A stretch of 64,000 bases of DNA from Pelagomonas calceolata (lineage: Eukaryota > Sar > Pelagophyceae > Pelagomonadales > Pelagomonadaceae): positions 3,968,001-4,032,000 of the forward strand of contig CAKKNE010000005.1 in the NCBI GenBank assembly GCA_918797485.1, written 5' to 3'. Below are positions 3,984 to 63,070 of the stretch, one piece after another; within the stretch, counting starts at the first letter, position 1, and each line of letters opens with the position of its first letter. A program made the translations under genes and the position numbers. Below the pieces are notes generated by a model. It did no database searches and was not told where the DNA came from. It was given only the letters and a program-made list of their open reading frames with translations.

Positions 3984-4006
3984 CTAGTGTCTTACAGGCC
4001 GCTAGC
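3984..4006. promoter_or_regulatory. Dispersed GCTAG palindromic motif, copy 1
   Basis: Begins CTAGTGTCTTACAGG and ends CCGCTAGC, on the reverse orientation of the window consensus (GCTAGCGGC, three variable bases, TAAGACACTAGC). It lies 107 bp upstream of the serine acetyltransferase start. The copies recur between or upstream of gene starts across the window, which argues for a cis-regulatory site or a very short mobile remnant. Confidence 0.6.
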
Positions 4007-4084
4007 ACGATTTTCCAGCGCTGGCCAGCCAGTTCGACGTCGAAGCGTTTGCTCAAGGTGAAGCCCATTGTCGGCCCTTCATTA

Positions 4085-4324
4085 ATGCAAGTTTTGTTGG
4101 GCCTCGAGTCGCGCGCGCGAGTTTCGAGCGGTCGGCGCGCGGACGACTCCTTCTGGAGTAACGCGGCGTTCTGTAGGAACGTCGTGGGCTGCCTCTACCG
4201 AGCCGACGTCGAAGCGTACGTGAGCGCCTGCCGGGCGCCGGCGTTGGGGACCTGCGCGGCCTTCCGTTCCGCCTGCGAGGTGCAGCTCGGGCGGCTCCGG
4301 GACGTGTGCGGGCTGGACGTTTGA
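4085..4324 (+). CDS. Possible small Cys-rich protein
   Basis: A 79-aa open frame with GC-rich codon use and seven cysteines: a CX5C pair, then ACRAPALGTC, then two more. The frame is open further upstream, but that part overlaps the dispersed motif and the serine acetyltransferase promoter, so I start at the ATG at 4085. No family is recognised. The frame on the other strand is less convincing. It could instead be the last exon of a longer gene or a non-coding region. Confidence 0.25.
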   Translation: MQVLLGLESRARVSSGRRADDSFWSNAAFCRNVVGCLYRADVEAYVSACRAPALGTCAAFRSACEVQLGRLRDVCGLDV

Positions 4325-4406
4325 GCGCACGTCCCCCACCCCTCCCGGACGTAAATATTCACCTTCCTGTGAGGGACTCAGTGCAATGTCCTAGTATCCT
4401 TAGCAA

Positions 4407-6866
4407 CTAGCCCACCTCCATGGGATCCGCCGTCAGCTCCCTCAACATAAAATAGGCCTGCTGCGACCGCACCTCCATGTCCTTCAGTTTGTCGACGTCG
4501 CCCGCGATGTTCGCCAGCCGCGCCGTCCGAGCTTTATCTTCTTCCTCCGTACCCTCGCGCACCTCGCCGAAGACCACGTCTCGCAATTCCGGCGGCAACG
4601 TTAAATCCTGAGCGTCCATGCGCGGCACCTGTTGACCCAACTTCGCCTCGACGCCCTTCAGCAACTCGGGTTCGTCGTACCAGACGCAGTTGCCGCCCTT
4701 CTCAAATTCGCGCGTGTCTTTTTGCGGCGGCTTCTTGCCCCGCTGGCAGAACCAGACCTTCTCTTTTACGGTAGAGACGAGAGACACGGCCAATCCGACC
4801 TTGTCGGCTCGCCCAACTCGACCAATCCTATGAACATAATTCTCGGCAACATCAGGCAAAGTCACGTTGACCACGCAAGGCAATCCAACAACATCAATAC
4901 CCCTAGCTGCCACATCGGTCGCGATCAAAATCTTCACGTCTCCCGCCTTGAAGGCCTCGAGGTTCCTCCGCCGCTCGTGCATCGAGCGCATGCCAGCTAA
5001 CACGCAACACGCGTAGGGCGACTCTTTCCCCGACTCCTTCCTTCCTCTGAAACCACCACTACCGCCGATCTTGTTCAGGTACTTTTCAAATAGGTCGCAG
5101 TCGAGGTTCGTCCGACAGAACACCAAACACTGCTCCATCTTGAGGGAATCGAACAATTTGACAAACAAAGCCGGTTTGGCGAGCTTCACGACCTCTGATG
5201 AATCTTCTTGCGAGGTCTCCAACACGGCCTTGACGTCGCCCTTGAGCAGTGACGGCGCCTCAAATTTATCTAAATCACCCTTGCGGTGGACACTATCAGT
5301 AGTAACACGTTTGTCGTCATCTAGAGACTGCTTGGCTAGTTCTCGAATATCGAGGGACGACGGATCCACAGGTACCACTAAATGCTTCACAGAGTCAGGT
5401 AAGTGCTTCTCGCCCTTCAAATCGACCCACGTCGGGTTGTCGCAGACCTTTCTTGACAACTCCTTGATGGCTTCCGAGTGCAAAGTAGCGGAGAAGAAGG
5501 CCACCTGCAGCCGCCGGTCGCGCGCCGTCGCCGACGCGCCCTTCGGCAATTTCTCGAAGATCTTGAGGCACGTCGCGACGTCGTCCGTCTCGATGAACCG
5601 GTCCGCCTCGTCCAGCGTGAAGAAGCGGCAGGCGTCGACGTCCATGATGCCTCGCTTCACCAAGTCCCAGACCTTGAGAGGCGTGCCCGTCACGATATCC
5701 ACATCTCCATTCCTGAGAGCTTGTTCGGCTTCTTTTGTATTTATACCGCCGATCAGCAGCGCGCATTTGATGTGCGGGTCTTGCAAATAACGAGCATACG
5801 ACTCAATGCAGTCGTGGGTCTGCTCCGCCAGGTCCCGAGCCGGTTCGAGGATGATGGCCGATACCGACCGGCCACTTTTCTGGCGTTTTTTGGTTGACTC
5901 GTACTCGTTCTGGTCCTTACGAAGGCCCGCTTGCAGCTGGGGGCACGCCGCTACGGATACAAACCCTTCTTTCGGGAACTTCAGCTCCGAAAATGATACA
6001 GCCAGCTGCGCGTTCCGCATCGCGACCGCCGGGAAGAGAGCTACACCTTGTAAAGCTGGCGGTAACGGTGCGAAGGCATTGCCAAACGACTTCCCGTTGA
6101 CGTCGAAGCCGCAACTACCCCCTTCGACGTCGAGGTCGAGCCAGCACCTGCGCGGAGCAGCGGTCGCTCGACTCGGTCCGAATGGCCTCAAATTCGAAAA
6201 AGAAACCACCCACTTCATGGTGAGATGGACACGAGTCGCATCGATGGCGTGAAGGCGCCTCCACACGACGGGACGCCGAGATACGCACGTCACGACGTCG
6301 CCTTTGCCGTATTTCGTACCGTAGTCGTCGAACTGGCGGTTGTGACTTTTCTTGGCCGTCGCGCCGAAGCCCAGGCCGTTCTTGTCCGTGCCTAAGTCTA
6401 ACGAGGCCGCTTGGGTTGACCAGCCCGCCCTGCATAGTCCTTCGTCCTCCACACAGATCTCGAAGGCGTACTTGCCACTCTTGGCGGCAATTCCTTGCGA
6501 GCAGCGGCCGCCGGACCACCTTTCTGAACGCGACTGGCACCGGTCATTGTCTACGGCTAAAGTAGCGTCGCGGTCTTGTGTAGATAATGCAGGAGGGCCC
6601 GTCGGCGGCGGCGGCGCCTCTGGTGCCTCCTCGACCGCTGCGGGCGCCTCGGGCTCCTTGAGCTTCTCGTGCACCAGTTCTAAGATAGGTAACGAGAAGG
6701 CCGCCGTCTTGCCGCTGCCCGTCGGCGCGGCGACCATGACGTCGCCGCCGCCCAGGATCAGCGGGATGGCCTCGTCCTGGACTTCCGTCGGGAGCGTGTA
6801 GCCCACGTCATAAATGCCTCGCTGCAGCTCCGGGCTCAGGCCCATGGCCTCGAAGCCGCCGGACAT
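4407..6866 (-). CDS. DDX1: ATP-dependent RNA helicase DDX1, with SPRY insert
   Basis: DEAD-box helicase whose SPRY domain is inserted inside helicase domain 1, the arrangement diagnostic of DDX1 (RNA processing, tRNA ligase complex, DNA-break RNA clearance). Motifs in order: Q-motif region GYTLPTEVQDEAI, Walker A APTGSGKT, the SPRY insert at roughly residues 105-290, DEAD in TLDEADRF, SAT in FFSATLHSEAI, then ARGIDVVGLP and HRIGRVGRAD. The uninterrupted frame is 819 codons, but 6148..6288 is better read as a 141-nt intron (donor GTGCGT, acceptor CGCGCAG). Its removal rebuilds the SPRY sequence GDVVTC-WLDLDVEGG and gives 772 aa. Exons are 6866..6289 and 6147..4407. The gene diverges from the IQ/CaaX protein gene, with a shared 480-bp promoter. 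Confidence 0.93.
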   Translation of the reverse strand: MSGGFEAMGLSPELQRGIYDVGYTLPTEVQDEAIPLILGGGDVMVAAPTGSGKTAAFSLPILELVHEKLKEPEAPAAVEEAPEAPPPPTGPPALSTQDRDATLAVDNDRCQSRSERWSGGRCSQGIAAKSGKYAFEICVEDEGLCRAGWSTQAASLDLGTDKNGLGFGATAKKSHNRQFDDYGTKYGKGDVVTCVSRRPVVWRRLHAIDATRVHLTMKWVVSFSNLRPFGPSRATAAPRRCWLDLDVEGGSCGFDVNGKSFGNAFAPLPPALQGVALFPAVAMRNAQLAVSFSELKFPKEGFVSVAACPQLQAGLRKDQNEYESTKKRQKSGRSVSAIILEPARDLAEQTHDCIESYARYLQDPHIKCALLIGGINTKEAEQALRNGDVDIVTGTPLKVWDLVKRGIMDVDACRFFTLDEADRFIETDDVATCLKIFEKLPKGASATARDRRLQVAFFSATLHSEAIKELSRKVCDNPTWVDLKGEKHLPDSVKHLVVPVDPSSLDIRELAKQSLDDDKRVTTDSVHRKGDLDKFEAPSLLKGDVKAVLETSQEDSSEVVKLAKPALFVKLFDSLKMEQCLVFCRTNLDCDLFEKYLNKIGGSGGFRGRKESGKESPYACCVLAGMRSMHERRRNLEAFKAGDVKILIATDVAARGIDVVGLPCVVNVTLPDVAENYVHRIGRVGRADKVGLAVSLVSTVKEKVWFCQRGKKPPQKDTREFEKGGNCVWYDEPELLKGVEAKLGQQVPRMDAQDLTLPPELRDVVFGEVREGTEEEDKARTARLANIAGDVDKLKDMEVRSQQAYFMLRELTADPMEVG
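6148..6288 (-). other. In-frame intron in DDX1 with introner core
   Basis: 141 nt (47 codons), with no stop codon in the host frame, so it is invisible to simple ORF calling. GTGCGT at the 5' end and CGCGCAG at the 3' end are good splice sites, and the flanking SPRY sequence aligns only when it is removed. It carries CACGCCATCGATGCGAC, one arm of the shared introner core, but no intact termini. Confidence 0.75.
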
Positions 6867-7047
6867 GGTCGCTCGGGAGCTTGTGCAGCTGTGCTCTCGC
6901 TCGCTCTAGGTGCACTGCGGCTCAGCGGCTGGCGGCGGCAGCGTGGTGTGGCAGTTCTTGTGAGTCACTAGCGCTGCTCAGCGAGTGTTCAACGACCACT
7001 GCGCACGAGTATCGAGGCTTCGCCGCTTGCTCGAGCTTCGAGTGATT

Positions 7048-7071
7048 CCTAGTGTGTCTATGAACGCTAGC
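7048..7071. promoter_or_regulatory. Dispersed GCTAG motif, variant copy between divergent genes
   Basis: Reads CTAGTGTGTCTATG and then ACGCTAGC. It lies 182 bp upstream of the DDX1 start and 278 bp upstream of the IQ/CaaX protein start. It preserves both GCTAG half-sites but has a diverged middle. The rest of the 6867-7348 divergent promoter shows nothing else I can name. Confidence 0.45.
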
Positions 7072-7348
7072 CGCTGCGTTTTGGCGTTGGCGTTGTCGCA
7101 AACGGCCCAAATTCCCGGTAAGAAGGGCAGTGCTCGCCGGCCTGACCACGTCGGGGACTGAACAGGCTCCCCACGCCATCGACGCGACGGCGTGCGGCTC
7201 CGAGGAGGGAGTGCGCTGCCTAGGCCATTAGGCTGCCCACACCATCCCACCTGCCGCTAGAGGCGGGGCTCCTCATTCATACCAGGGAGGGAGGTTTGCC
7301 GACGACAAGCCAGCCGACGCGGGGCAGCCCCAGAGACCAAACGCGACC

Positions 7349-9001
7349 ATGGCCGAGGTGCGCTGGGACGGCTACGAAGGCATCTACGCCGACCGCGCGG
7401 CGGACCCGCTCTTCAGCCCACGAATAATCGGCACGACGGCGGACCCCGACGACCGCGTGAAGGCGCCGCCCGGCTCATTACCGGCACAGCTCACCGTCGA
7501 CCCCCTCGCGTTCTACCGCGTCACACCATCTGTCAATGAGCCCCGGGAGGACGCCGTCTCCATTGATACTCATAGGAGGGATGAACTCGTCAACGACCCG
7601 GCGTTCTTCCGGCGCGGCATCTTCGCGAAACGAAGTCCTGTGAAAAAAACACCCGACGCCGCACTGATGCAGAAAGCCGTGGTCCTCCAGGCGCGCTGGC
7701 GCGGCGTGGCCTCCAGGCGCGCACTGGCGAATGAAGAGGACGCGAGCGTCGACCGGGCAATCCAAGAGCGCATTCTGAAGCTCATGCGTAATGATGAAGA
7801 CGCGAGCACGAATACGAACCAAACAGTGGAAGCGTTCATGCGCACGCCGGTGTCGACGTGGGTCGACGACAGCGACGCCGCGACGGTCGAGACGGCGACG
7901 GCTCGGACGGCCGAGCCGTCGGTCGACGATCCGTCGATCACGACCTCCCGGAAGGGCGAGATTTTGAGGAGGGCGCTCGTCACGGGTGAACCTATAAGTT
8001 GCGCGGGCCCGGTCCATCTCAATCTGGTGATAGCGTCGGGCAAGCGAAGGGGCCTCGTCGTCGACCATCGAGGCGGCGACGCGGTCACGCGGGAGTGCTG
8101 CTGCTTCCTGCCCTGGGTGCCGTGGCAGCCTTGGCTCCTCTGCGCGTGTTCGGATGTTGTTAGGGTGGGCGGCACCCGCACCTCATTCTTGTGCTGTAGC
8201 TACTCCGACGTCGTCAAGGCGAAGTACTACCCCTCCTCGAAGGCAATTAAAATAGAGGGCTGCCTGAGCTGCTGCGTCCCGCACCCGTTCGGCCAGCACC
8301 TCCACGTGCCCCGGGGCATTTATGGAGTGGACGCGCCGGTGGCGTCCTTTGGGTGCCTGTGCCCCGTGTTTAGGGGGAGGGAGCGCTTCGATCTTTATGA
8401 TGACGGCACGATCCGGCCGGCGCCGCGGCCGGATCTGGTCGTGGGGCGGCGGCACGTCGTCCGCGACAATAGATTATGTCTGGTACGGCATTCAGACGTC
8501 CACCGGCGCCTGGTCTTCAGCGACGTCCTGCGCCAGGCGAAGGCGGGAGGCGGGAAGTGCGTCTGCCCGCGGTGTCGTCGCAAGTGGTGCGGCTGCTGCC
8601 GGCGGTCTTCGTCGAAGCCCGTCGAGCCGGTGCGTGTCAGATTAAAACCTCTGGACGGCGTCTGCCGCTGCCACAAGGCCGCGCAGCGGTCACGTATGTG
8701 CCGGCGCGATGGCACGTGCGCGATCTGCGGCCGGCGGCGCGGCGCGAATAAAGTGAAGGCACCGACGGCGACGACGGCGGGCCAGGACACCTCCATCACC
8801 CCCGCAGAGCGTCAAAAAATAGAGCAGCAGAAGGAACGGGCCGCGCAGCTCGCGCGCCAGGAGGAGGCCCAGATCGACGCGTTCGTCCTTGGTGTTTTAG
8901 GGGAGAAGCGAGGTGCGGCGGCGCTGCGGCGAGAGAAGCTCAAGCCGAAGAACGAGGGGCTCCAGGGCAAGACGCCGGAGGCCGGTTGTGTCGTAATGTG
9001 A
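7349..9001 (+). CDS. IQ-motif, Cys-rich protein ending in a CaaX box
   Basis: 550 aa, single exon, family not recognised. An IQ motif (MQKAVVLQARWRGVASRRAL, residues about 109-128) predicts calmodulin binding. Residues about 245-345 form a Cys-rich module with paired cysteines (ECCCFLPW, LLCACSDV, SFLCCSYSDV, GCLSCC). A second cluster at about 400-470 has CxxC-type pairs (KCVCPRCRRKWCGCC, VCRCH, CAICGRR) that could bind zinc. A basic, Gln/Glu-rich helix follows. The protein ends EAGCVVM-stop, a CaaX box whose final Met predicts farnesylation, so membrane attachment is likely. The Cys modules have double-Cys spacing that could also fit palmitoylated (PLAC8-like) proteins; I could not decide. 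Confidence 0.75.
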   Translation: MAEVRWDGYEGIYADRAADPLFSPRIIGTTADPDDRVKAPPGSLPAQLTVDPLAFYRVTPSVNEPREDAVSIDTHRRDELVNDPAFFRRGIFAKRSPVKKTPDAALMQKAVVLQARWRGVASRRALANEEDASVDRAIQERILKLMRNDEDASTNTNQTVEAFMRTPVSTWVDDSDAATVETATARTAEPSVDDPSITTSRKGEILRRALVTGEPISCAGPVHLNLVIASGKRRGLVVDHRGGDAVTRECCCFLPWVPWQPWLLCACSDVVRVGGTRTSFLCCSYSDVVKAKYYPSSKAIKIEGCLSCCVPHPFGQHLHVPRGIYGVDAPVASFGCLCPVFRGRERFDLYDDGTIRPAPRPDLVVGRRHVVRDNRLCLVRHSDVHRRLVFSDVLRQAKAGGGKCVCPRCRRKWCGCCRRSSSKPVEPVRVRLKPLDGVCRCHKAAQRSRMCRRDGTCAICGRRRGANKVKAPTATTAGQDTSITPAERQKIEQQKERAAQLARQEEAQIDAFVLGVLGEKRGAAALRREKLKPKNEGLQGKTPEAGCVVM

Positions 9002-9227
9002 TTTTTGTCTATTTTTTCGACGCGGTGTCTCGCTTCTATCGCGTTTAGACCACGTCTCCCGAGCCGCTGACTTTGCGACGTATTCGGATTTACCCGGGTT
9101 TCTCGGCGGGGGTGTCTGTCGTGGTCTATACTCGAGAGGTCTCGCTCTAGAGTCTCTAGAGAACCTCCCGGCGACCCGCACCTCTGGTTTTAGTTGTTAT
9201 TACCCACAGACTCGTAAAGGACGGCCC

Positions 9228-9893
9228 TCACCACGCGTCGACCTCGCTCCCGCCGCCCGACTCGACGGCCGCCATCTCGGCGTCGGTGATGGGCGTCAGG
9301 CCGAAGCGCGGCGCGAGGTCCGCGAGCTCGACGGCGAGGCCCGACGGGACCGCCTCCACGGCCGGCGCCGCGGCGGCGGGCGTAGATACGGGCGCAGAAG
9401 CCTCCTTCTTGAGCAGCGACCGCTTGCCGAGGAATTTGATGAGCGGGACGTGACCGCGCTTCGGCGCCGGCTCGGGCGCCGCGGCGGGCGCCGCGGCCGG
9501 CTCCGGCGCGGCCGCGGGCGCGGCCGCGGGCGCGGCAACGGGCGCCGCGGCGCCGTCCGTGTCCAGCGTCATCATCTCGGCGCCGACCTGGACCTCGTCG
9601 TCGACCGCGACGGACAGACTCTGGACGACGCCCGCCGTGTCCGAGCGCACGTCCACGGACACCTTGTCCGTGTCTATCACTGCCACAATCTCATCCACCG
9701 CAACGGCGTCGCCGACCGCCTTCTCGACGGACGCGACCGTGCCCTCGGTGATCGAGTCGCCCATCGCGGGCACGTTCAGGACGTGCGTCGCGAGGGCGCG
9801 CGCGGCGGCCCGCCGCGGCGCCGCGGCCCGCGCGCCAGCGCTTCGCGGCGCCGCACGGGCGCGTTGGACCACTCGTCCGAGGGTCCGCAGCAT
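9228..9893 (-). CDS. Lipoyl-domain protein fused to a Kgd4/MRPS36-like tail
   Basis: 221 aa if started at the ATG at 9893 (MLRTLGRVVQRARAAPRS), which gives an Arg/Ala-rich mitochondrial presequence; an in-frame ATG at 10010 is less likely. Residues about 37-115 are a biotinyl/lipoyl domain of 2-oxoglutarate dehydrogenase E2 type (MGDSITEGT; lipoylated Lys in DTDKVSVDV). An Ala/Pro linker follows. There is no peripheral-subunit-binding domain and no acyltransferase domain. The tail has two blocks, HVPLIKFLGKRSLLKK and LAPRFGLTPITDAEMAAVESGG. They match the N- and C-terminal signatures of yeast Kgd4 and human MRPS36, the adaptor that tethers E3 to 2-oxoglutarate dehydrogenase. Inferred role: a lipoyl-carrying E3 adaptor of that complex. 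Confidence 0.82.
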   Translation of the reverse strand: MLRTLGRVVQRARAAPRSAGARAAAPRRAAARALATHVLNVPAMGDSITEGTVASVEKAVGDAVAVDEIVAVIDTDKVSVDVRSDTAGVVQSLSVAVDDEVQVGAEMMTLDTDGAAAPVAAPAAAPAAAPEPAAAPAAAPEPAPKRGHVPLIKFLGKRSLLKKEASAPVSTPAAAAPAVEAVPSGLAVELADLAPRFGLTPITDAEMAAVESGGGSEVDAW

Positions 9894-10065
9894 GTCTTCT
9901 GTCTGGGGCTGTGCTCGCTTTTGCGCGGAGCGATGCGGTTTCCGCGCAGGGAGACTTGCTCTCCGATGCGTTCGGCGAGCGATGCGTCTGTGACAGGCTG
10001 CGATTTGCACGAGAACTGCTCAACCCGGCGTACTCCGGCCGCAAAGGAAAGGCTGCGCAGCCGGT

Positions 10066-10089
10066 GCTAGCGGCCTGTAAGACACTAGC
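10066..10089. promoter_or_regulatory. Dispersed GCTAG palindromic motif, copy 2
   Basis: A clean copy: GCTAGCGGCC, then TGTAAGACACTAGC. It lies 173 bp upstream of the lipoyl-Kgd4 gene start, inside the 9894-10399 gap, which otherwise holds no gene I can support. Confidence 0.6.
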
Positions 10090-10399
10090 AAGCAGCGCGA
10101 ACGGCTCGCGTGGAACGTAGCCCCACGCCGAAGCCGTCGACGCTACCCCTAAAACGGAACACAGGGAGTCCCTTACCCCCCTACCACCGCGACGCGCGTC
10201 CGCGTCGCCGCGAAAAAACCTGTGGAGCAAAAGAAACGTGTGTGCGCCCGCACCACCCGCGCGCGCGGAAACGCAAGAACCGCCCGGGGGTCGGTGGCAG
10301 ACAACGGATGCTCTGCGCCGGCAGAACTGGAGCGGCGTCTACGGACGAAGACGAAGCTCCGAAAGGCCAGCGTAAATAAGAAGGACGCCGGTCCACACT

Positions 10400-11005
10400 T
10401 CAAGAAGGCGGCGCGAACCGCTCGGCCCGCGCCTTGAGCTTGGCCTCGTTCGCCTTGACGGCCGGGTCCTTGAACCGCTCGGCCCTTGCCGCTTTTTTGG
10501 CCGCCTCTTCTTTGGCTCTAGGGTCTTCAAATCTCTCCTTCCTAGCCTTCTTCTTCGCCTCGTCGGCGTCGGGGTCCGGCAACCCGAAGCGCTCGGCGCG
10601 CTTCTTTTTCTTCTTCTTGTCGTTTTGTTTCTTGTCCTTCGGCGCCACATACAATGGAATGCCGAAGCGCGCGGCGCGCGCGGCCTTCTTCTTCTCCAGT
10701 TCGCTCAGCTCCTCCGTTGCTGGAGGCGCGGGCTCGGCCGCGGGCTCGGCGGCCGCCGGTTCCGGCGCGGGCGGCGGCGCGGGGGCCGGCGCGGGCGGCT
10801 TTGCTGCCTTGGGCGACGGCGCCGGGGCCTTCTCGGGGCTCGGCGCCGGCGCGGCGGCCGCGGGCTCGTCGAGGCCGAACTCCTCCTCGTCGAGCGCGAG
10901 CTGGAGCCGGTCGACGAGGACGGCCTTGAGGCCGTCCGTGCTCAGGCCGCGCTCGGCGAGCGCCGCGCGGAGCTCCGCGACCTTCATCTTCTTGGGCTCG
11001 ACCAT
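10400..11005 (-). CDS. SAP-domain protein related to SARNP/Tho1
   Basis: 201 aa. An N-terminal SAP DNA/RNA-binding helix pair (MKVAELRAALAERGLSTDGLKAVLVDRL) is followed by an Ala/Pro-rich linker. A basic C-terminal half repeats the motif [AR]ARxERF five times: AARAARFGIP, KKRAERFGLP, KARKERFEDP, AARAERFKDP and KARAERFAPP. Human SARNP (CIP29) and yeast Tho1 have the same architecture. There the repeated motifs bind several copies of the DEAD-box protein UAP56/DDX39B in the TREX mRNA-export pathway. Nuclear location and mRNP packaging are inferred from this. The gene is divergent from the phospholipase C gene. Confidence 0.8.
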   Translation of the reverse strand: MVEPKKMKVAELRAALAERGLSTDGLKAVLVDRLQLALDEEEFGLDEPAAAAPAPSPEKAPAPSPKAAKPPAPAPAPPPAPEPAAAEPAAEPAPPATEELSELEKKKAARAARFGIPLYVAPKDKKQNDKKKKKKRAERFGLPDPDADEAKKKARKERFEDPRAKEEAAKKAARAERFKDPAVKANEAKLKARAERFAPPS

Positions 11006-11196
11006 GGTGGCTTGTGTTTGTTTGCGCGGCGCGCTCCTCTGGTGCTCAGCGGGCTACTGCGGCGGCGACGTCTGCGGGCGAACGTCTGCGCTGGGCTGCT
11101 GGCGGGCGGCGGAGGAAGTCAGAGATGTGTCTCTGTGCACCGGTCGTCCGCAATAGCGCGCGCGCGACGGCTGCCAAAGTTTCGCGGGCTCGACAC

Positions 11197-11219
11197 GCTA
11201 GTGTGTTACACGACGCTAC
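11197..11219. promoter_or_regulatory. Dispersed GCTAG motif, variant copy
   Basis: Reads GCTAGTGTGTTACACG and then ACGCTAC. It sits between the divergent SAP-protein (192 bp) and phospholipase C (252 bp) starts. Nothing else recognisable lies in 11006-11470. Confidence 0.45.
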
Positions 11220-11470
11220 CTCCGTTTTTGTTCGCATCCCGCAAAATCAGCGCAAACGCGTGATTGGATCGATAGGTGTATCCGACGCAGCGCCTAGACG
11301 CTGCGGTGCTTGATTCTCGCGCGAGTTTTGACAGCTTTCGCACCCTACAGCCTCGCAGAGCATAGCACCTTATTTGCACGCGTTCTGCCACGCGCCACGC
11401 GAACACGCGAACGACAGTTCGGCATCGACACGTAAACACGAACTACAGTCCGGCATCTCGACAGTACGCG

Positions 11471-13170: not shown

Positions 13171-13313
13171 CTTCTCTCCTTCTTTGTTTGTTGTTGATAA
13201 GTCTTCCGTTCAAAATCAGAGTCGATGTTACGGTGCTAGGACTAGTGGGCGGAGCCCCGGGGGGGAGACACCGCGCTTCGCCGATTCATCGGCGGCGGGC
13301 GTTCAAAATCCTT

Positions 13314-13337
13314 GCTAGCGGCTGGTAAGACACTAGC
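13314..13337. promoter_or_regulatory. Dispersed GCTAG palindromic motif, copy 3
   Basis: GCTAGCGGCT followed by GGTAAGACACTAGC. It lies 161 bp upstream of the DUF488-like gene. The remainder of 13171-13497 shows no gene. Confidence 0.6.
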
Positions 13338-13497
13338 AGGCAGGCAAGCTTGCTCTTGCCAGCCGATTGCGCCCTCACTCTGGTGTAAGAGTGGCCGTGG
13401 ATCTACACATTGCTGCTCTCATCGCTGCCTTGTGCTCGCTGCCAACTTTCAGCTCCTGCAACGGTCGGGAAGCCGCGAAACTATCCGCAGTGCTTAA

Positions 13498-14637: not shown

Positions 14638-14643
14638 TTGTTG

Positions 14644-17911: not shown

Positions 17912-17941
17912 CTTGTGAATGAGTAAACAATGTATACCTAA

Positions 17942-50495: not shown

Positions 50496-50666
50496 GCTCG
50501 ACTTTTGTGAGTAGTGAGATTAAGGGACCCCCGTGAGCCCGCGGAACGGTATCAGACTCGTCCGGTAATCTGATCCGTCGGATCCGGCACCAGAGCTGAC
50601 GCATTTCAGGAGGGATTGAGGCTTCATAGGCCAAAAACCTCGAATTGCTCAAGTGGTTGAAGGATC

Positions 50667-51623: not shown

Positions 51624-51647
51624 AATCTAGGTAAACTTAGCACATCT

Positions 51648-54020: not shown

Positions 54021-54035
54021 ACAATTAACCAAAAT

Positions 54036-54968: not shown

Positions 54969-55179
54969 TCGGCTCGGTCTCTTGCACCGGTCCGCGGTTG
55001 TGCGGCTGTGGATCTGCTGTGGCGCCTGGGGTGCTTATGGATAACTTCGATATGGCTTTGCCTAGAGTATGGCTGCCTGGACGTGCCTGCGCTTGCAACG
55101 ATGTGGCTTTGCCTTTACGTGCCTGTGCTGCAATTAAGCTATGCGGTGTGGTGCTGCAAAAAAGCGGCAAAACGCCGGT

Positions 55180-55203
55180 GCTAGCGTACACAGACACACT
55201 AGG
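55180..55203. promoter_or_regulatory. Dispersed GCTAG motif, variant copy
   Basis: GCTAGCGTACAC then AGACACACTAGG, 64 bp upstream of the calcineurin-B-like start and 212 bp from the divergent methyltransferase start. The half-sites are kept, the centre is changed. Confidence 0.5.
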
Positions 55204-55266
55204 AAAAACAACAAAGCGCTGTGCCGTCGGGCTGCCCCCGCCCCATCAGCAGTCGCCCAGAGAAGG

Positions 55267-55875
55267 ATGGGCAACGACGTCGCCAAGAACTGCGCGAACC
55301 GCATGGCCATCGGCGCCATGTCCAACGTGACGGACCTGGAGCGGCCGGTCATCCAGCGCATGTCCGAGAAGCTGGCCGATATTGCTAAAAGAGAGGGTTC
55401 CAAAGATCTCGTGACGAAGGAGGAGTTCGGGGAGGCCCTGAACGGTTTGGAGATCACGCAGAGCGACCGGGACATCCTGGATCGCATCTTCGTCATGCTC
55501 GACCGCACGGGCGAAGACAGGATCAACCACAAGGAGTTCATCGTCGGCATCGTGCCCTTCGCGCTGGGCAAGACGGAAGAACTGATCCAGATGGCCTTCG
55601 AGCTGTTTACGAACAACGCGTCGGATCGCGTGACGCCGATGGATTTGAGATTTATATTGATGACGCTGAACACGGTGGCGTCGTATTTTGGGGATCCGGT
55701 CATGACCGTGGCGCAGGTCGACAAGGTCGTGGACGACGCGGCGGACAAGCTCGACCCGCCGCCCAAATCGGGCGAGCTGCTCATGGCCGAGCTGTCGCCG
55801 TACGTAGCCGACCACGAGTTCGTCCACGAGTTCGTCGAGGGCAAGGGGACCTCGCGCTACGGGAATAAGTTGTAG
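55267..55875 (+). CDS. Calcineurin-B-like EF-hand protein
   Basis: 202 aa from the ATG at 55267, which puts Gly at position 2 (MGNDVAKNC) and a Cys nearby, a likely N-myristoylation/palmitoylation signal; upstream in-frame Mets are ignored for that reason. EF-hand-like segments: KDLVTKEEFGEALNGLEI, then MLDRTGEDRINHKEFIVGI, then a degenerate third with RVTPMDLRFILM. The loops are imperfect (Thr and Glu at the 3 and 5 ligand positions), so calcium affinity may be low. Probably a regulatory subunit or sensor. Confidence 0.8.
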   Translation: MGNDVAKNCANRMAIGAMSNVTDLERPVIQRMSEKLADIAKREGSKDLVTKEEFGEALNGLEITQSDRDILDRIFVMLDRTGEDRINHKEFIVGIVPFALGKTEELIQMAFELFTNNASDRVTPMDLRFILMTLNTVASYFGDPVMTVAQVDKVVDDAADKLDPPPKSGELLMAELSPYVADHEFVHEFVEGKGTSRYGNKL

Positions 55876-55965
55876 TCCACAGGCTCCTGGCTAGGCTGGT
55901 GGTATCTCCCGCGAACTTGAAGAGATCCGCGAAGCCCGCCGGGAAATTACTAGTACAAGACAAGT

Positions 55966-58900
55966 CTACTCGTGCGGGAAGAGCGACTCGACCACGCCTT
56001 CGACCACGACGGCGCACGCGTTCACGGCCGCGAAGAAGCACAGCGTCAGGCCGAAGATGCAGTTCATCGCGGCGCCGCGCTTGCGGATGGGCTCGAGCAG
56101 CTCGGTCGCGCAGACGTCTGGCGCGTCGCCGTGCGCGAAGGGCCCGTCTAATCTAAACAACGGCGCGTGCGCCTGGCCGAAGGCGCAGGCGAGCGCCACG
56201 GCCGGCCTTTCCAAGATCCATCGCGCGAGGTTTGGCGCCGCGCCGATCTCCCGCGCGAGCGAGAACATGTACAGGCCGTAGTCGACCTGTGTGTGGAAAT
56301 CAACAACGCCGTAAATTTTGATTTGCACACAGGTGTCGATACGCCGTAGCTCAGGCGGCAATTCGTCAGTTTGTAGGGCGCCGACGGCACGCGCGGCCCC
56401 GTCGCGCGGCCCTGGAGCTTCGCCACCCACCACATGGCCTGCAACTCGCTCATCGGCGGGATGGCGCCGACGTTCGGTCGCGCGAAGCCGAAGAACGCGA
56501 GGTCACCTTCCTCCGGGTCGCAGATGAAATGCTCAGTCGGCAGCGCATCGTCCTGGCCTGTGTGGAAATCAACCAGTGAGTTGGGTTATTCGCCGCGTCG
56601 ATGGCGTGGGGCGCCTGAAATTTGATTTCCACACAGGCCTCGGCCGTCCGACGCCCTCTTCAGAAAAGGGAACGTCTGCCTGTAGCCCGTCGCCAGGACG
56701 ACGACGTCCGCGGCCACTTCCACGTCGTGACGGTCGTCGGCCCGCGTCGACCGGAAGCGCACCGCCCGCCCGCCAAAGCTAGCTGCCTCGTAGTGGTCGA
56801 GCAGGTCCACACCTGTTCATAAATCAAATTATCGCGGCGCGTCGACACATGACCTCCACGCCATCGACGCGAACCCACCGACTCACTGTTTGATTTGCGC
56901 ACAGGTTCACGCCGACGGCCACGTCCGCCTGCGCTTTATCCAACCAGCGCCACGGCCGCGCCCACCACGCCTCCTTGGGGCCGCGGTTGATGAGGGGCAT
57001 GCACCTGTGTGGAAATCAAACAAGTGAGTCGTGGAGGTCGACGAAGGTGCATTGAAACTATCTCTGCACAGGGTATGACTTCGTGGCCTTGTTCACGATG
57101 TGTTTCCGCCCTTCCGCCCAGTCCATCGCGTCGGCGCGGCCGCGCCATTGGTTCCATCCGGCTGACGAGCCGCTCACGCAGAGCATCCCAAGCCGCTGGA
57201 ATTTCGTCGTGATGAACCAATGAAAACCAACACGCCGCGACCTGTGCGCAAATCAAATAGTGAATCGTGATTGCGCCGCGAGAATTTGATTTATTCACAG
57301 GCCGCAACCAGCTCGACTCCCAGCAGTGCGTGCCGGCGTTCGCAATTAAACAATCCAAAGGCGCGAAGTCCTCGCCAAACGACGCCGGCACCTGTGTGGA
57401 AATCAAATTGTCGTGGCGCGTCTCCGCCAGTGCTGAATCATGACCTTACGCCATCGACGCGACGCCACCTCGATGGCGTGGCGGCGTCGCGTCGATGTCG
57501 TGGCGGTGTGGGCCTTACACGACTCGATTCAGTCCTCAGGGCAGCGTCGTCGCCGAGAAATGACTTGGTGAAGATTACACCCGACACACTGGTTGATTTT
57601 CCACACAGGCCGGCACGCTCACGAAGCCTCGCCGCGTCGCCAGCGTGACGTGGGCTGCATTGTTTGCGGCGGCTGCGTGCGCGACGTCGAACGCTGTCTC
57701 GCCGCAGCCGACGACGACCTGTGTGGAAATCAAATTTCGGGCGCCCCACGCCATCAACGCGTCTCCGTATCCCTAAATAGCTGCATCTGCTCGATGGCGT
57801 GGTCCCAGGCCATCGACGCGACGTTTCCCCGTGACCGCGTCGGTTCCATGGTGTGGAGGTTAACGAAGGTCCACGCAATACCTAACTCACTGGTTTATTT
57901 CCACACAGATGACGACGACGCGCTTGTTTTTGAATATCGAGGACTCCTTATAGTCCTGCGAGTGAATCACAAGACCCTTGAAGGCGCCGGGGATGTCCGG
58001 GACCTTCGGCTCTTGGTGCAGACCTGAGCAGACTGCCACGCGATCAAAGGGCTCCACGGTCCTGTGACTCCCGTCGAGCAGTGTCGCTCGGTAGCCACGT
58101 CTCGTTTTGTCGAGGACCTCGACCGTGGCGTGCCGCATGTACCGCATGAGGTCGTGCTCGACCGCGCTGTGTGTGGAAATCAACCAGTGAGTGAGATTAT
58201 TGCGGAGACCTTCGTGAACCTCCACGCCATCAAGCAAATGCAGTTGCGGGGACGACGTCGCGTCGATGGCGTGGGGCGCCTGAAATTTGATTTCCACACA
58301 GGTCGACTACTAGGTATGGAGGTACGCGACGTAGTCGTCGAGGCTCTGGTGCGACTCGACCTCCGGACCTAACCTCAAGTCGGAGAAGGGTGTGATGTAC
58401 TTGCTCGAGACCTGGTGCGCGCCCTCGTAGGCGTCGGCGAAGACGCCGCCGATCTGGCCCGTCTTCTCGACGATCACCACCTCGGCGCCGTTCTCCAGCA
58501 GCGTCTTCGCCGCGGCGAGCCCCGACGCGCCGGCCCCGATGACGAGGACGCGACCGAGCGGCTTAGCCTCGGCGGGCGCTTCGTAGGCGTCGCGCGCCGC
58601 CGCGGCTCGCAGCGCCAGGAAGAACGCAAAAGCAGCTCCGGGCGAGAATACGAGGGACGCCACACAGAATACCGCCGCCGTCGTCGGCCCGCGGTCGCGG
58701 CGGACGGCGTCCGCCGAAATCACGGCGCACGCGACGAGGTCCACGAAGATCGATTTTTGGCAGTCCGTCGCCGGCCAGCACGCGACGCGGTCTCGTCTCC
58801 AGGCTATAAGGACGCCGAGCACCGCGTAGACGCCGGCCTCGTCGAAGGACCGCCCGAACGACGGCAGCCAGCGCGGCGCGACGAGCAGGAGGTGCAGCGC

Positions 58901-59389
58901 CTTGAGGACAACACCGAAGGTGACCGCGTCGGTCACGGCGAGCTGGGGCAGCCTCTGGACCGCGAGCAGCGCTAGGACCGAGCAGACGACGTAGGCGAGC
59001 GGCACGCGCGTCGAGCGCTTCTGAAAGCTCGGCGGCGTCAGCGCGAAGGCGGCGCTCATCGCGCCCAGCATGCCCGTCCAGAGGAGCTCCGCGGGCTCGT
59101 GCCGGCACCAGAGCGCCGCGACGACGACCCACGTGAGCAATTGGCACGAGTTACGATCGTGCGGCGCCTGGAGCACGTCGGCGTAGGCGTCGTCGAAGAG
59201 ATTGTCGCCGCCCCGGGCCTTGTAGGCCGTCGTGTAGCGTAAGATGTAATACCAGGTGACGGCGACGAGCGCCGCAGCGATGCTCGCTTGTTTGGCAGAG
59301 GTGCGTGTCAGCTGCTTGCGCAGCGCCCAGGTGAGCACTGCAAAGTAGCACCATACTTGCCAGTCGTAGAGCAGGTCTTGCACTGGCAT
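55966..59389 (-). CDS. Flavin-containing monooxygenase with polytopic N-terminal domain; nine exons
   Basis: Exons: 59389..58326, 58166..57917, 57718..57617, 57391..57309, 57241..57080, 57004..56913, 56812..56645, 56557..56343, 56286..55966. All phases agree (2,0,0,2,2,1,1,0), giving 818 aa. The N-terminal 280 residues hold six to eight membrane helices. The FMO part follows: FAD motif VLVIGAGASGLAAAKTL, FMO fingerprint FKGLVIHSQDYK, NADPH motif VVVVGCGETAFDVA and ATGY in VVVLATGYRQTF. The tail FGLTLCFFAAVNACAVVVEGV is another membrane helix. The family oxidises soft N or S nucleophiles. All eight introns are introner-derived. An ATG at 59461 would add 24 residues. I know of no FMO with such a membrane front end. 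Confidence 0.85.
56287..56332 (-). mobile_element. Minimal introner (46 bp), last FMO intron
   Basis: Little more than the two termini: CTGTGTGCAAATCAAAAT and TTGTTGATTTCCACACACAG. With the preceding GTATCGACAC it forms a 56-nt intron (56287..56342) that joins LSYG to VDYGLYMF. The flanks GTATCGAC and GTCGACTA are not a clean duplication. Confidence 0.8.
56558..56636 (-). mobile_element. Introner in FMO intron 7, GC-type donor
   Basis: Termini are intact on both sides, with the sub-terminal AACCCAACTCACTGG. Coding-strand flanks are GCCGAGGC and GCCAGGAC (5 of 8). Phase and protein alignment (KRASDG-QDDALPTEHF) fit an intron 56558..56644 starting with GC. The inner GTGG donor also keeps frame, but adds four residues. 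Confidence 0.8.
56813..56904 (-). mobile_element. Introner in FMO intron 6, GC-type donor
   Basis: Coding-strand termini CTGTGCGCAAATCAA and TTTGATTTATGAACAG (diverged). Flanks are GCGTGAAC and GTGTGGAC (6 of 8). The intron 56813..56912 must start at that GC to give AVGVDLLDHYEAAS. No GT donor gives the right phase except one inside the element. Confidence 0.8.
57005..57071 (-). mobile_element. Introner in FMO intron 5
   Basis: Coding-strand start CTGTGCAGAGATAG (decayed terminus) and intact end TTTGATTTCCACACAG. Intron 57005..57079, GT donor in flank GTCATACC; the downstream flank is GTGCATGCC, alignable with one gap. It joins NKATK to CMPLINRGPKEAW. Confidence 0.82.
57242..57300 (-). mobile_element. 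Introner in FMO intron 4
   Basis: 59-bp element with both termini recognisable (CTGTGAATAAATCAA, TTTGATTTGCGCACAG on the coding strand) and duplication GTTGCGGC/GTCGCGGC (7 of 8). Intron 57242..57308 joins CWESSW to SRRVGFHWF, phase 2. Confidence 0.88.
57392..57608 (-). mobile_element. Introner with perfect target duplication, FMO intron 3
   Basis: Coding-strand duplication GTGCCGGC is identical on both sides. Element of 217 bp in the long family (GAAATGACTTGGTGAAGAT, CCATCGACGCGACGCC core). Intron 57392..57616 restores GFVSVPASFGEDFAPL. Confidence 0.95.
57719..57908 (-). mobile_element. Introner in FMO intron 2
   Basis: Coding-strand duplication GTCGTCAT/GTCGTCGT (7 of 8), intact termini, sub-terminal TTTCGGGCGCCCCACGCC on one side and CCTAACTCACTGG on the other, with two cores. 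Intron 57719..57916 restores the NADPH motif NKRVVVGCGETAFDVA. Confidence 0.93.
58167..58301 (-). mobile_element. Introner in FMO intron 1, with extra 5' flank
   Basis: Intact termini (one is CTGTGTGTGG on the + strand, with an extra GT). The best splice is 58167..58325, a GTACC donor 24 nt before the element, giving DDYVA-AVEHDLMRYM, phase 2. This flank contains TAGTAGTCGAC, also found beside the copy at 56287, and the usual 8-bp duplication is not visible. Confidence 0.78.
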
Positions 59390-59509
59390 TTTGGTCGCCG
59401 CAAGATGTTGACGCTTGCGGAGCGTTGCAAAACTAATCGTGCCGTACAAAAATGCGACCAATTCGCATTGATGTGCGCATGCGCGGCCTGTTTTCCGCGG
59501 GTGAAGCTT

Positions 59510-59533
59510 GCTAGTGTCTTACATGCCGCTAGC
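59510..59533. promoter_or_regulatory. Dispersed GCTAG palindromic motif, copy 9
   Basis: GCTAGTGTCTTACA then TGCCGCTAGC, identical to copy 6 base for base. It is 121 bp from the FMO start and 66 bp from the TauD-like start, central in the divergent promoter. Confidence 0.68.
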
Positions 59534-59598
59534 CCGCTCCCAGACTCAAAGACCTTACTCAAATGTTCGCAGCGTCCCTAGGGTGCTAGTTGCGCTAG

Positions 59599-60976
59599 AT
59601 GATGGACAACTTGCTTCGCGTTGTTGCGCTGGCATCACTTGCGCCACTCTCTGCGGCGGAGAAGGCTGATCTCTACGGCGCGGCGGCGCCGGCGACTTTG
59701 CTCCCGCGCCACCGACGCGACTGGGATTACTGCACGGCGAATTTGTGCGGGGGCGCGGAGCGGCTCGGCGCGCTGCTTGACGCCGGTGACCTGCGGGAGC
59801 TGGGGCCGGAGGGCGCTGACAGGATTAACGATGCCGTCCGAGCCTATGGCGTGGTCGTCATCAAGGGGCAGAATCTGACGCGCGCGGAGCAAGTCAAGTT
59901 CACTCGGCTTCTCGGCGAGCCGGTCGCGCTGGCGAAATCCTTTTACGGGAAAGACCCGGAGCCCAATCAGCCGTCGATCTTACGCGTCACCAATTTCTGG
60001 GCGAATGGCACTTGGAAGGGCACGAGTCACAAATTCGGCGACTACTGGCACCAGGACGGCCAGTTTTGGGACGCGCCGAAACCTGTGTGGAAATCAACCA
60101 GTGAGTCGGGTGCACGGGGCCGTGCTGGCTCCGTCGAGCGGCAAGGAACCGGCATCGCCACGCCATCGAGCAGGCGCCGCGTCGATGGCGTGGAGGACGA
60201 CGCGATGATTCGAACGCGCCGTAAAATTTTGATTTTCACACAGGCCGAAACACAACATGCTGTCGATCGTGCACGCCCAGCAGGTGCCGCCGCGGGGCGG
60301 GGAGACGGGATTTGTGGATATGCGGGCCGCGCGGGCGACGCTGTCCGCGCCGCTTCTGAAACGCGCCGCCAAGGCGGCGATCCACGCGTCGGTTCGAGAG
60401 ATCAAAGACTTCCGAGGCGGCGACGAGGAAGACTTCGCCATGTTCCCGAAAGTGGCCGTCCACCCCCTGCTGGCCAATCACTACGTGGACTCCGGCCCGC
60501 TGCTGTACGTGGGGTCGCCGCACATGAAGGTACACGGCTGCGTGGAAATCAAAATTTTATGACGTGTTCGCTGAATCGACGCGTCGACCTCCACGCCATC
60601 GACGCGACGCCTGCTCGATGGCGTGACGATGCCGGTTTCTCACCGCTTGACGGGGCCAGCACGGCCCGCGGCGTCATCGCCGAGATATGACTTGGTGAAG
60701 AATTATCGGGTGCACCCGACACACTGGTTGATTTCCACACAGGTACACGGCCTCGAAACGCCCGAGGCCGGCAAGCGGCTCCTCAACATGTTGCTCGCGC
60801 ACGCGACGTCGCCGGCCTTCCAGTATTTCCACGCCTGGGAGGCGGGCGACGTCGTCGTCTGGGACAACTCGCAGACGCTGCACCAGTCCATGCCCTACGA
60901 CAACGACGGTCACGCCCGGCGGGAGTACTACCGGTCGCAGGCTCGGATAAGGCCGCCGGCGGTGGCGGAACTCTGA
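59599..60976 (+). CDS. TauD/TfdA-family 2-oxoglutarate dioxygenase
   Basis: Exons 59599..60074, 60244..60529 and 60743..60976 (331 aa). Short hydrophobic leader (LLRVVALASLAPLSAA). GVVVIKGQNLTRAEQVKFTRLLGEP, iron ligands in DYWHQDGQFW (HxD), distal His in VVVWDNSQTLHQSMPY, and the 2OG Arg in ARREYYRSQ. This is the TauD pattern; the substrate could be a sulfonate, carnitine precursor or aromatic acid. Two introners split it. The first removes an 8-bp duplication starting with GC (DAPKHNMLSIV restored), the second one starting with GT (SPHMK-VHGLETPEAG). Confidence 0.88.
60083..60243 (+). mobile_element. Introner, perfect duplication starting with GC
   Basis: Duplication GCCGAAAC identical at 60075-60082 and 60244-60251. 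Termini CTGTGTGGAAATCAACCAG and TTTTGATTTTCACACAG. Lies in the reverse orientation relative to 60538..60742 in the same gene. The precise intron 60075..60243 would begin with GC. The alternative donor GTGG at 60087 keeps frame and adds four residues (PKPV). Confidence 0.92.
60538..60742 (+). mobile_element. Introner, perfect duplication starting with GT
   Basis: Duplication GTACACGG identical at 60530-60537 and 60743-60750. Termini CTGCGTGGAAATCAAAAT and TTGATTTCCACACAG. Long family with TTTTATGACG, the CCATCGACGCGACGCC core and GATATGACTTGGTGAAGAA. Intron 60530..60742, 213 nt, phase 0. Confidence 0.95.
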
Positions 60977-61029
60977 TCGTGCATATTCTCTGTGTATTAG
61001 CTTGTAAATATTGTTCACATACCACAAAA

Positions 61030-62895
61030 TTACTCGTCCACAGAGAACGTAGGCGCGACGCTCCCCAGAGACTCGTACGCGAGCCGCTTGACGAAGTCGT
61101 CGTACGGGTCGTCGCCGCGCCGCTGCAGCAGGTACTCCACCTGGAGCTCGACTTGCGTGCGCACGGCGCCGTAGAGCGCGTCGCAGGCGTCCGCGTTCGC
61201 CGGGTCGACGGCCGTCGTGTGGAAGGGCCGCCCGAAGAGGTAGTAGTTGCGGCGCGGCGCCGCGTTCGGGGCCATGAGCGGTGGGACGAACGTGTCTCCA
61301 TCTACTAGGCTCACCAAGGACTCGGTACGATTCCGCAGGAACTCGCCTGCGTGGAAATCGACGCGTCGACGGCGTCGGACGCCTTAAGATGATCCCTACG
61401 CGGGCCGCTCGCCGACGCGGTTGTCCATCGTCAACAAATCGTCGGTATCCAAGGCATAAGCCTCGTTCCCGAAGAACTCGTCGCCGCCCACGCCCGCGAA
61501 AGGTATGATGGTGGCGTTGAACTTGGCGGCGATGCGCACGAGCGCCGACGAGTCCGAGGGCCACCGCAACGTATAAGCCTCGCCCTTGCGCTTGAAGACC
61601 TCCCGCGCGCCGCCGGGGAACACGAGCGCCTTGGCGCCACGCTTCAACGCCGCTATAAGGGTCTTCGCGCCCGCCGGCTCTCCTCCGAACCGCCGCAGCA
61701 TCGCCGCGGACCCGGGTAATGGATAAGGCAGCGGCGCGAGCGGGCTCTCATCTGCTAAAAGTGGAGGGTACACCAGCGGCGTCAGGGCGAGCCGCCTTTC
61801 TCGTAGAAACTCTTCCACAATATGAACGCCGTCCAAACCAAAAAGCTGGTGGTTGCCCACGAAGAGCACCGGTCCCTCGCTCGGGACGTTGAAGAGGCCG
61901 TCCTCGACGGAGCCATCTGCCGCGGTCGAGAAGAATCGCGGCGACACGAGGCGCCGCGCGGCGAGCATCGACCGCTCGATGGGCGTCGTGGCCGTGACGC
62001 CATTTGAAGCCCGGCGCGGCGCGCTCGGGAGGAGGCCGTTATCAGCAAAAACGTCCAGCAGGTTCGCCGCGTCAAACAAGACGTGCGGCGCGCCGCGCTC
62101 GATGCGGACCGTCGCGCCCGGGATTAATTGCGCGAGCCTTCGCGCCTCGCGCACGGACGGCAGCACCGCGTCATTCTCCGAGGCCACGAGCACGCAATTA
62201 GAGGCCCAGCGCGGCGGCGCCTTGAGCCGCTTGAGCGCGTCGTTGACGGACGCCGCGCCGTTCCGCAACAGAGCTCTCTCGCGGTGCGTGAGCGTCTCGC
62301 GGGGCAACGCCGCGGCCAGGCCCTCGCCCAGCGCCGCCGTCCAGCCGGGCCGGCCCATGATCGGCGTCACGACCGGCGCCAGCGTCTCGTAGACCCGCGT
62401 CGGCAGCCTCGGCAACAACCCGGTGATGCGCGAGACCGGCGCGCGCGCGTACGACGACGCGCTGTTGCACAGCACGAGCGACGCGACGCGCTCGGGGCGC
62501 GCGAGCGCCAGACCTAAAGCCGCCAGCGCGCCCATCGACTCCGCCACGATGTGCACTTGACCGTCCGGCGCCGCCGCCGCCGCCGAGGCCGCGAGCCGTA
62601 CGAGGTCGCCGTGCGACGACCGGTCCGACGGGTCCAGTACGAGCGCGCGCACGTCGAACCATTCGCCTAAGCGCTTCCAGTTCCGTGCGCCGACGCGCGG
62701 CGAGCCGTCGAGGCCGCCGAGGGCCAGGAGCACCGGCTTATCGTCCGTGCATTCGGGATCGACGCGGACGAAGCGCGCCGTATCGAGCGCTTCCGGCACT
62801 TCCGTGAACTGGCGGCGCGTCAGTGGCGTGAGTTTGTGTGCTTGAGGTGCGAATGCACCGGTGCACGCTACGAGCAGCGTCGCACGAGTCAGCAT
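61030..62895 (-). CDS. Phytyl ester synthase-like acyltransferase, plastid-targeted
   Basis: Exons 62895..61413 and 61346..61030 (599 aa). Signal peptide plus GAFAPQ, a clear ASAFAP-type plastid motif (residues 13-18). N-terminal alpha/beta hydrolase: LLALGGLDGS, nucleophile Ser in IVAESMGALAALG and His in RGAPHVLF. The C-terminal DAGAT-type acyltransferase: VLFVGNHQLFGLDG (NHQ in place of HxxxxD-type HP), FPGGAREVFKR, and IIPFAGVGGDEFF. This two-domain build is that of plant PES1/PES2, which esterify phytol from chlorophyll breakdown in plastoglobules. The 66-nt intron 61347..61412 has a GC donor (DNRVGEFLRNR restored) and an introner-like 3' end GATTTCCACGCAG. Confidence 0.9.
61347..61404 (-). 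mobile_element. Decayed introner in the phytyl ester synthase gene
   Basis: Only the 3' terminus is clear (GTCGATTTCCACGCAG on the coding strand), with GACGCCGTCGACGCG before it. Flanks GCGAGCGG and GCGAGTTC match for five bases. Phase is satisfied only if the intron starts at that GC (61412). Confidence 0.65.
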
Positions 62896-63047
62896 GTTTC
62901 AAGGTGATTTAGTCAGCGGGTGCAAAAGTGACGGAGAAGCTGCAAGGAAGTCGTAAGATTGAACGCAGATAATTATATCGTTGCTCGTCGCAGCGCCTCT
63001 GGAACTCTCCTAGGCTGGACAAAAGCAAGAGGTTGGCAAAAAAACGA

Positions 63048-63070
63048 GTTAGCGGTCTGTAACACACTAT
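63048..63070. promoter_or_regulatory. Degenerate GCTAG motif
   Basis: GTTAGCGGTCTG then TAACACACTAT. It sits in the middle of the 62896-63219 divergent region, 153 bp and 150 bp from the two starts. Both half-sites have one change. Confidence 0.4.

Follow-up and report, generated by a model that had tools for sequence, protein, structure and literature searches.

A 64,000-nucleotide window of contig CAKKNE010000005.1 (positions 3,968,001 to 4,032,000 of the forward strand; positions without a contig label are those of the window) carries a repeated sequence of 22-24 bases, made of two unequal half-sites in inverted order about 0-2 bases apart, that lies upstream of genes and usually faces the downstream gene or the nearer start codon. 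It is quite probably a lineage-specific promoter element, bipartite and directional, in a nuclear genome of pelagophyte type, recognized by a putative factor; we infer protein binding and action from sequence, copy number, location and orientation bias, each of which is observed directly in the DNA. An earlier note on this window had described the sequence as a palindromic motif of divergent promoters, and had considered a protein-binding site, a core-promoter or nucleosome-boundary element or a tiny mobile element. The protein-binding or core-promoter reading is supported by enrichment upstream of genes, avoidance of coding sequence and orientation bias.

Detection of the element

The motif is real: the sites listed in the earlier note were read directly, and a search of the window with GCTAGYGNCNNNTAAGACRCTAGC, allowing up to 3 mismatches, gave 15 matches at 10 distinct sites, as compared to 0 in 100 dinucleotide shuffles. 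Five of these sites matched on both strands because the ends of the element form an inverted repeat. The sites are present where they had been placed, but the 24-mer of the first occupies 3983-4006, and that at 47992, without the two variable bases, is only 22 bases long; 46646 and 59510 are identical copies, as had been stated. In a consensus-free word count over the 35 upstream gaps of the window, ACACTAG topped the 7-mer enrichment (15 of 35 gaps, with 1.2 expected) and GTGTCTTA and GTAAGACA led the 8-mers (9 of 35 gaps, with 0.15 expected), while the remaining words among the 16 top-listed per length came mostly from repeated-intron sequences. The raw gap count reached by some word in random sets was 18 for 7-mers, 10 for 8-mers, 8 for 9-mers and 6 for 10-mers, so that enrichment is what singles out the short words, whereas the 9- and 10-mers (9 of 35 gaps) are notable for their count as well.

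A mechanical rule (GCTAGYG-N8-10-CRCTAGC, with at most 1 mismatch) found 29 copies across ten sources; applied to 15 first-order random sets, it gave 0.33 copies on average and never more than 2. In the window alone it found 15 copies, adding one at 15956 to those previously listed, taking 29226, and omitting 20285 and 63048. The sample analysed below consists of 31 accepted copies, 17 from the window and 14 from contigs that appear eukaryotic but were binned into marine metagenome-assembled genomes (MAGs). Relative to the 29 rule copies, this list lacks L018:848, which was dropped because it lies inside an open reading frame (ORF) with an upstream ATG, and includes 20285, 63048 and L013:2146. 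Among contigs fetched for reasons other than the motif, the strict rule found 3 copies in L057 and none in L054 and L066.

It is the long asymmetric consensus, and not the core alone, that carries this evidence. With spacings of 4-14 and 1 mismatch the CTAG core gave 31 matches, and of seven other palindrome cores GTCGAYG gave 37 and GACGTYG 16; at 2 mismatches, three other palindrome cores exceeded the CTAG core (277, 198 and 95 versus 72). TCGA is very frequent in this DNA.

Anatomy of the half-sites

The consensus of the 31 copies, each split as 9 + spacer + 13, reads GCTAGCGKC, 0-2 bases, and GTAAGACACTAGC. The terminal inverted repeats that had been described are present, though imperfect and unequal: the left GCTAG is followed by C in 30 of 31 copies, the right CTAG is preceded by A in 29 of 31, and both occur together in 28 of 31, including 13 of the 15 window copies found by the symmetric rule. 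Because that rule admits any C/T combination, the difference between the halves is not imposed by it. A symmetric palindrome bound by a dimer, as suggested previously, is not supported, in view of the consistently kept C/A difference together with the orientation bias relative to genes.

Nine of the 31 copies are 22 or 23 bases long. In 47992, L018:2685 and L020:5352 the two halves are almost complete, which places the missing bases within the spacer; in the other six short copies, this placement depends on the chosen split. The right half has GACACAC instead of GTAAGACAC in six copies (7048, 15956, 29226, 55180, L020:461 and L057:8486), giving the minority form GACACACTAGG. Among the 22 copies of 24 bases, columns 3-7 (TAGCG), 15 (A) and 20-22 (CTA) are invariant and columns 8-11, 16 and 24 are the most variable, an unevenness that is partly built in by the choice of copies.

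Position and orientation relative to genes

In agreement with the claim that copies lie outside coding sequence, 0 of the 29 rule copies, one of them doubtful (L018:848), overlap predicted coding segments, which make up 65% of bases, where about 19 would be expected (P of about 7e-14 if copies were uniformly placed). By location, 14 fall in divergent gaps (2.5 expected), 12 in tandem gaps (5.4 expected) and 3 in contig-end stretches. A strict copy is present in 13 of 21 divergent gaps and in 12 of 47 tandem gaps, some of the latter probably being introns; in these location and gap counts the copy at 34099 was scored as tandem, the neighbouring kinesin ORF having not yet been added. When only non-coding DNA is considered, the excess in divergent gaps is modest (P 0.008). 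The proposed association with divergent promoters holds as an enrichment and not as a restriction, since, of the 17 accepted window copies, 12 occupy divergent gaps and 5 are flanked by genes on the same strand; the element is tied to gene 5' ends in general. It is thus enriched upstream of starts and avoided in coding DNA, as a promoter element should be. Beyond the listed copies, GCTAGCG occurs 7 times in tandem gaps (0.26 per kb), twice in divergent gaps (0.16 per kb) and 3 times in coding sequence (0.03 per kb), all small numbers.

The element is found at the promoters of many functionally unrelated genes. Those adjoining copies encode, among others, a helicase, exportin, kinesin, a SNARE, triosephosphate isomerase, an FMO-like protein, a methyltransferase, Sir2 and thioredoxin, and in the extra contigs the element again lies upstream of unrelated genes.

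The copies also have a preferred orientation, a feature expected of core-promoter elements. Where both neighbours of a tandem gap are known, the ACACTAGC end points toward the downstream gene in 10 of 11 cases, and in divergent gaps it points toward the nearer ATG in 13 of 16. Combined, 23 of 27 copies face in this manner (two-sided P 0.0003), as do 14 of 17 in the window alone (P 0.013) and 21 of 25 when 15956 and 55180, whose faced start codons are ambiguous, are set aside (P 0.0009); the orientation counts leave out L013 and the copies at contig ends (L017, L021 and L022). Distances to the ATG range from 63 to 365 bp for 26 copies, mostly 60-300 bp, with a median of 158.5 bp for 28 facing distances and 200 bp for 17 back-side distances. 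The distances computed for 15956 and 55180 are negative, their ORFs running across the motif.

Proposed function and alternatives

Two DNA-reading modules connected by a flexible linker, in one protein or in a heterodimer, would bind the site. Once bound, the factor may open the promoter and help recruit RNA polymerase II, acting mostly on the faced gene and often also on the divergent neighbour. The element would then act like a general regulatory factor site with a built-in direction.

A number of observations weigh against this interpretation. Most of the extra contigs were fetched for carrying the motif, and the coding segments are self-trained codon-usage calls, approximate and distinct from annotation. 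The divergent copy L018:848 probably lies inside an ORF with an upstream ATG, so the coding count is possibly 1 of 29. The lack of a strict copy in convergent gaps (0 of 18) says little, because convergent DNA is short and only about 1.8 non-coding copies would be expected there. Upstream gaps without a strict copy include those of SHMT, LHC, the BART gene at 37 kb and TUTase. As to orientation, 10066 is the tandem exception, 34099, 59510 and L057:2003 are divergent exceptions to the facing of the nearer ATG, and at 63048 the nearer-ATG margin is only 4 bp. Moreover, an Arabidopsis survey warns that a preferred orientation near starts can stem from asymmetry of the local sequence and need not imply function (PMC4778318), so that the direction of action is inferred.

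It is possible, if less probable, that the sequence acts regardless of its orientation, as a general regulatory factor site or a barrier site that removes nucleosomes from promoters in the manner of Reb1, Abf1 and Rap1 in yeast, and that the orientation bias is a by-product of promoter asymmetry. The likelihoods of this reading and of a directional element overlap, because the two differ only in the direction of action. Occurrence at divergent and tandem promoters alike, often with one copy between two genes, is consistent with such a site, as is the mildly asymmetric base composition (C over G) on the gene side of copies. Like the element, the sites of the yeast factors are used at very many unrelated promoters. 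Abf1 recognition likewise contains a spacer, although to our knowledge no sequence is shared between the element and the Reb1, Abf1 or Rap1 consensus. On the other hand, the C/A difference in 28 of 31 copies and the facing in 23 of 27 exceed the needs of an orientation-neutral site, and no nucleosome-like CpG periodicity was seen in the window or around copies, the latter being weak evidence. Rap1 is described as repressing divergent transcription independently of motif orientation, whereas the orientation of the element follows the genes (PMC6602560).

The vertebrate CGCG element TCTCGCGAGA is described as palindromic, located in TATA-less housekeeping promoters and able to activate bidirectional transcription (PMC6192621); it has 10 bases and is symmetric, whereas the algal element has 22-24 bases and is asymmetric and oriented. 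The INR+FPR and DPEP elements reported from oomycetes, another stramenopile group, are likewise lineage-specific and belong to only part of the genes (PMC3599244); they show that core elements peculiar to a lineage do exist among stramenopiles. An initiator (Inr)-like pattern, YTCANTYY, gave no clear signal near the algal copies, with 4 matches at scattered positions in the 250 bases gene-side of 30 copies (1.5 expected). In the stretch from the copies to the ATG no further promoter motif was conspicuous, the best 7-mer being GCCGTCG (7 of 31 copies, with 0.6 expected). The early promoter AAAAATGA described for an Aureococcus virus is unrelated to the element (PMC5917014).

Literature searches found no published description of the element, in keeping with the earlier note, with most subscription papers outside the search scope and absence therefore unproven. 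The accessible text of a Phytophthora motif paper lacks the words palindromic, bidirectional and divergent (PMC3520976), the main text of the pelagophyte papers searched contains neither 'promoter' nor 'motif', and 11-12-base strings of the motif were met only in papers with unrelated titles. More speculatively, and rather doubtfully, pelagophytes may have swapped the usual TATA/Inr core for a long asymmetric two-part element, with spacer and half-site subtypes, through which a lineage-specific factor would set the position and direction of transcription of many genes. If the element proves genome-wide, it would offer a handle on gene switching in very abundant ocean algae and a component for expression vectors; it could also serve as bait for a new promoter-binding factor and to test how compact genomes encode promoter direction.

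That the sequence instead serves one pathway-specific regulator is unlikely: some promoters do lack the element, as this would predict, but the adjoining genes are functionally diverse, from helicase to thioredoxin.

The tiny mobile element of the earlier note, or a formerly mobile palindrome that settles in open promoter chromatin, is very improbable. The inverted-repeat ends, the many near-identical copies and the intergenic placement are what such an element would leave, and two-base flank identity (5 of 31 copies versus 2.0 expected, P 0.04) points the same way. Against this, a target-site duplication of 3-9 bases is present in at most 1 of 31 copies, not above permutation, and similarity of flanks does not extend beyond the element (mean flank identity 0.27). 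Mismatches are uneven and concentrated in few columns, an argument that is partly circular, and orientation follows the genes. Miniature inverted-repeat transposable elements and introners share with the element inverted ends and many copies; it differs from them in being 24 bases long, in lacking a target-site duplication, in lying upstream of genes and in its end sequence, the introners of the same genome ending differently.

Least probable is a signal at the RNA level (a hairpin, terminator or untranslated-region element), for while six base pairs flanking a mismatch could form between the inverted ends (-5.3 kcal/mol for two copies, without a shuffled control), a hairpin or terminator is rejected on the stem-breaking C-A mismatch, which is kept in 28 of 31 copies and neither repaired nor offset by compensating changes, and the convergent gaps, though short, hold no copy.

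Host genome and occurrence elsewhere

The window has a GC content of 63.6% by base counts, and 37 of 46 window ORFs matched a Pfam family at an E-value of 0.001 or better, including exportin 1, kinesin, triosephosphate isomerase, SNARE, mitochondrial carrier and chlorophyll-binding protein; a search with Rfam at gathering scores and with ARAGORN found nothing in the window. Its composition and gene content suggest that it comes from the compact nuclear genome of a photosynthetic eukaryote. For the genome of Pelagomonas calceolata, 63% GC and 0.45 introns per gene are reported, and intron lengths peak near 210 bp, as is typical of introners (PMC9481584). Window GC and repeated intron-like sequences fit that genome, and the host of the element is probably a Pelagomonas-like alga.

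An exact scan of 84,980 prokaryote genomes with the 22-base core pattern gave five matches, all in three marine MAGs (G001, G002 and G003), and exact-pattern scans of viral contigs gave none. Within the three MAGs, the 24-base pattern at up to 3 mismatches had seven matches and its reversed control none. With a looser pattern at 3 mismatches there were 9 matches, but the reversed control had 40; only those of the 9 with 0-1 mismatches, all already found, therefore carry meaning. Among 377 genomes of the phylum of G003, only G003 and G001 matched at up to 2 mismatches; the reversed control matched 11, and chance matches thus occur at this threshold.

Tetranucleotide correlation with the window is 0.82-0.91 for L017-L020, the motif-matching contigs of one MAG, and for L054, L057 and L066, which were found by repeat similarity, as compared to 0.35-0.56 for 16 other contigs of that MAG and the 77-kb G002 contig; the G003 contigs are less clear (L021 0.52, L022 0.71). 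L018 encodes an acetyl-CoA carboxylase with a central region, which we take to be typical of the eukaryotic single-chain enzyme. The G002 contig is read as bacterial except for the motif-carrying stretch near 1.9-3.0 kb. Apparently, then, the motif-bearing MAG contigs and those found by repeat similarity are mis-binned eukaryotic DNA of the same lineage as the window or a close one. The apparently pelagophyte-like contigs are C18, C141, C143, C146, C169, C170 and C182 of G001 (MED672 'Spirochaeta') and C634 and C536 of G003; in G002 the stretch at about 1.9-3.0 kb of C13 appears pelagophyte-like, and this contig is possibly chimeric.

No orthologous stretch joins the window to other contigs, the DNA and protein matches being repeats or short conserved pieces; the DNA queries against the three MAGs were window positions 1-20000 and 44001-64000. 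SHMT and the helicase have protein-level matches to the G002 contig, read as bacterial.

Copies in the window and their genes

Five window copies lie in tandem gaps. The 24-base copy at 3983-4006 (- strand) faces a serine acetyltransferase gene (-) at 105 bp from its ATG, that at 13314-13337 (+) faces the gene at 13498-14634 (+), and that at 21544-21567 (+) faces the triosephosphate isomerase gene. The 22-base copy at 47992-48013 (+), without the two-base spacer, faces a longin/synaptobrevin SNARE gene, and the 24-base copy at 10066-10089 (+), upstream of a lipoyl-domain gene (-), is the sole tandem copy pointing away from its gene.

The remaining copies are 24 bases long unless stated otherwise. 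On the minus strand, 7048-7071, with a GACACACTAGG right half, lies between a DEAD/SPRY helicase gene (-) and a gene at 7298 (+); 11197-11220 between a SAP/Tho1 gene (-) and a phosphoesterase gene (+); 15956-15979, absent from the earlier list, between a (-) gene and a BART-domain gene (+), with an ambiguous faced start codon; 46646-46669 between genes for an RSN1-type channel (-) and a mitochondrial carrier (+); 50473-50496 between GST (-) and serine acetyltransferase (+) genes; and 59510-59533, of the same sequence as 46646, between FMO-like (-) and TauD-like (+) genes. The 22-base copy at 29226-29247 (-), in which both halves are T-type and orientation was set by the GACACACTAGG end, faces exportin 1.

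On the plus strand, the copy at 23755-23778 sits in a divergent gap where the (+) ATG is 63 bp and the (-) ATG 75 bp away. That at 34099-34122, between a gene at 33831 (-) and kinesin (+), is divergent only with the kinesin ORF, a segment added by hand to the gene model for the orientation and word-count analyses. The copy at 55180-55203, with a GACACACTAGG right half, separates a methyltransferase gene (-) from a weakly EF-hand-like gene (+), and its faced start codon is ambiguous. Two weaker copies are the 22-base sequence at 20285-20306, with 2 mismatches, between an ABC gene (-) and TspO (+), which fails the strict rule, and 63048-63071, between a hydrolase gene (-) and one at 63295 (+), which fails the strict half-site rule.

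The promoters at 46646 and 63048 also have in common a 33-base block with 2 differences (about 46585-46617 and 63099-63131), gene-ward of the copies. It ends in TAACAACACACACACTAG, an extra half-site-like element about 25-60 bp past the main copy on the gene side.

Other repeated sequences

Repeated intron-like elements, probable introners, occupy window positions 49419-49688, 52433-52647, 56570-58319, 60081-60245 and 60559-60746. They have ends TGTGTGGAAATCAA and TTGATTTCCACACA and internal CCACGCCATCGACGCGACG repeats, and are also present in contigs C146 and C182 of G001. In the helicase/SPRY gene, the stretch 6146-6288 is about 75-80% identical over 69-139 bases to places in other contigs (L054 at 1967 and 2384, L066 at 1505 and 10132, L018 at 5914 and L019 at 4824), and is perhaps a repeated coding segment.

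A further repeat, starting with GTTACGGTGCTAGGACTAGTGGGCGG, occurs at 13226-13301 of the window, at 299-375, 2050-2114 and 4055 (partial) of L020, and at 5285 (partial) of L057. The 76-base match near 13226 was considered as an orthologous promoter and set aside as a separate repeat, the neighbouring genes being dissimilar. In 5 of 5 places seen, the repeat lies in a tandem gap, on the strand of the gene whose coding end is found about 37-75 bp upstream of it. Single folds of four copies are stable, at -32 to -47 kcal/mol without a shuffled control, and the repeat could be a 3' processing element, a terminator element or a small repeat family.

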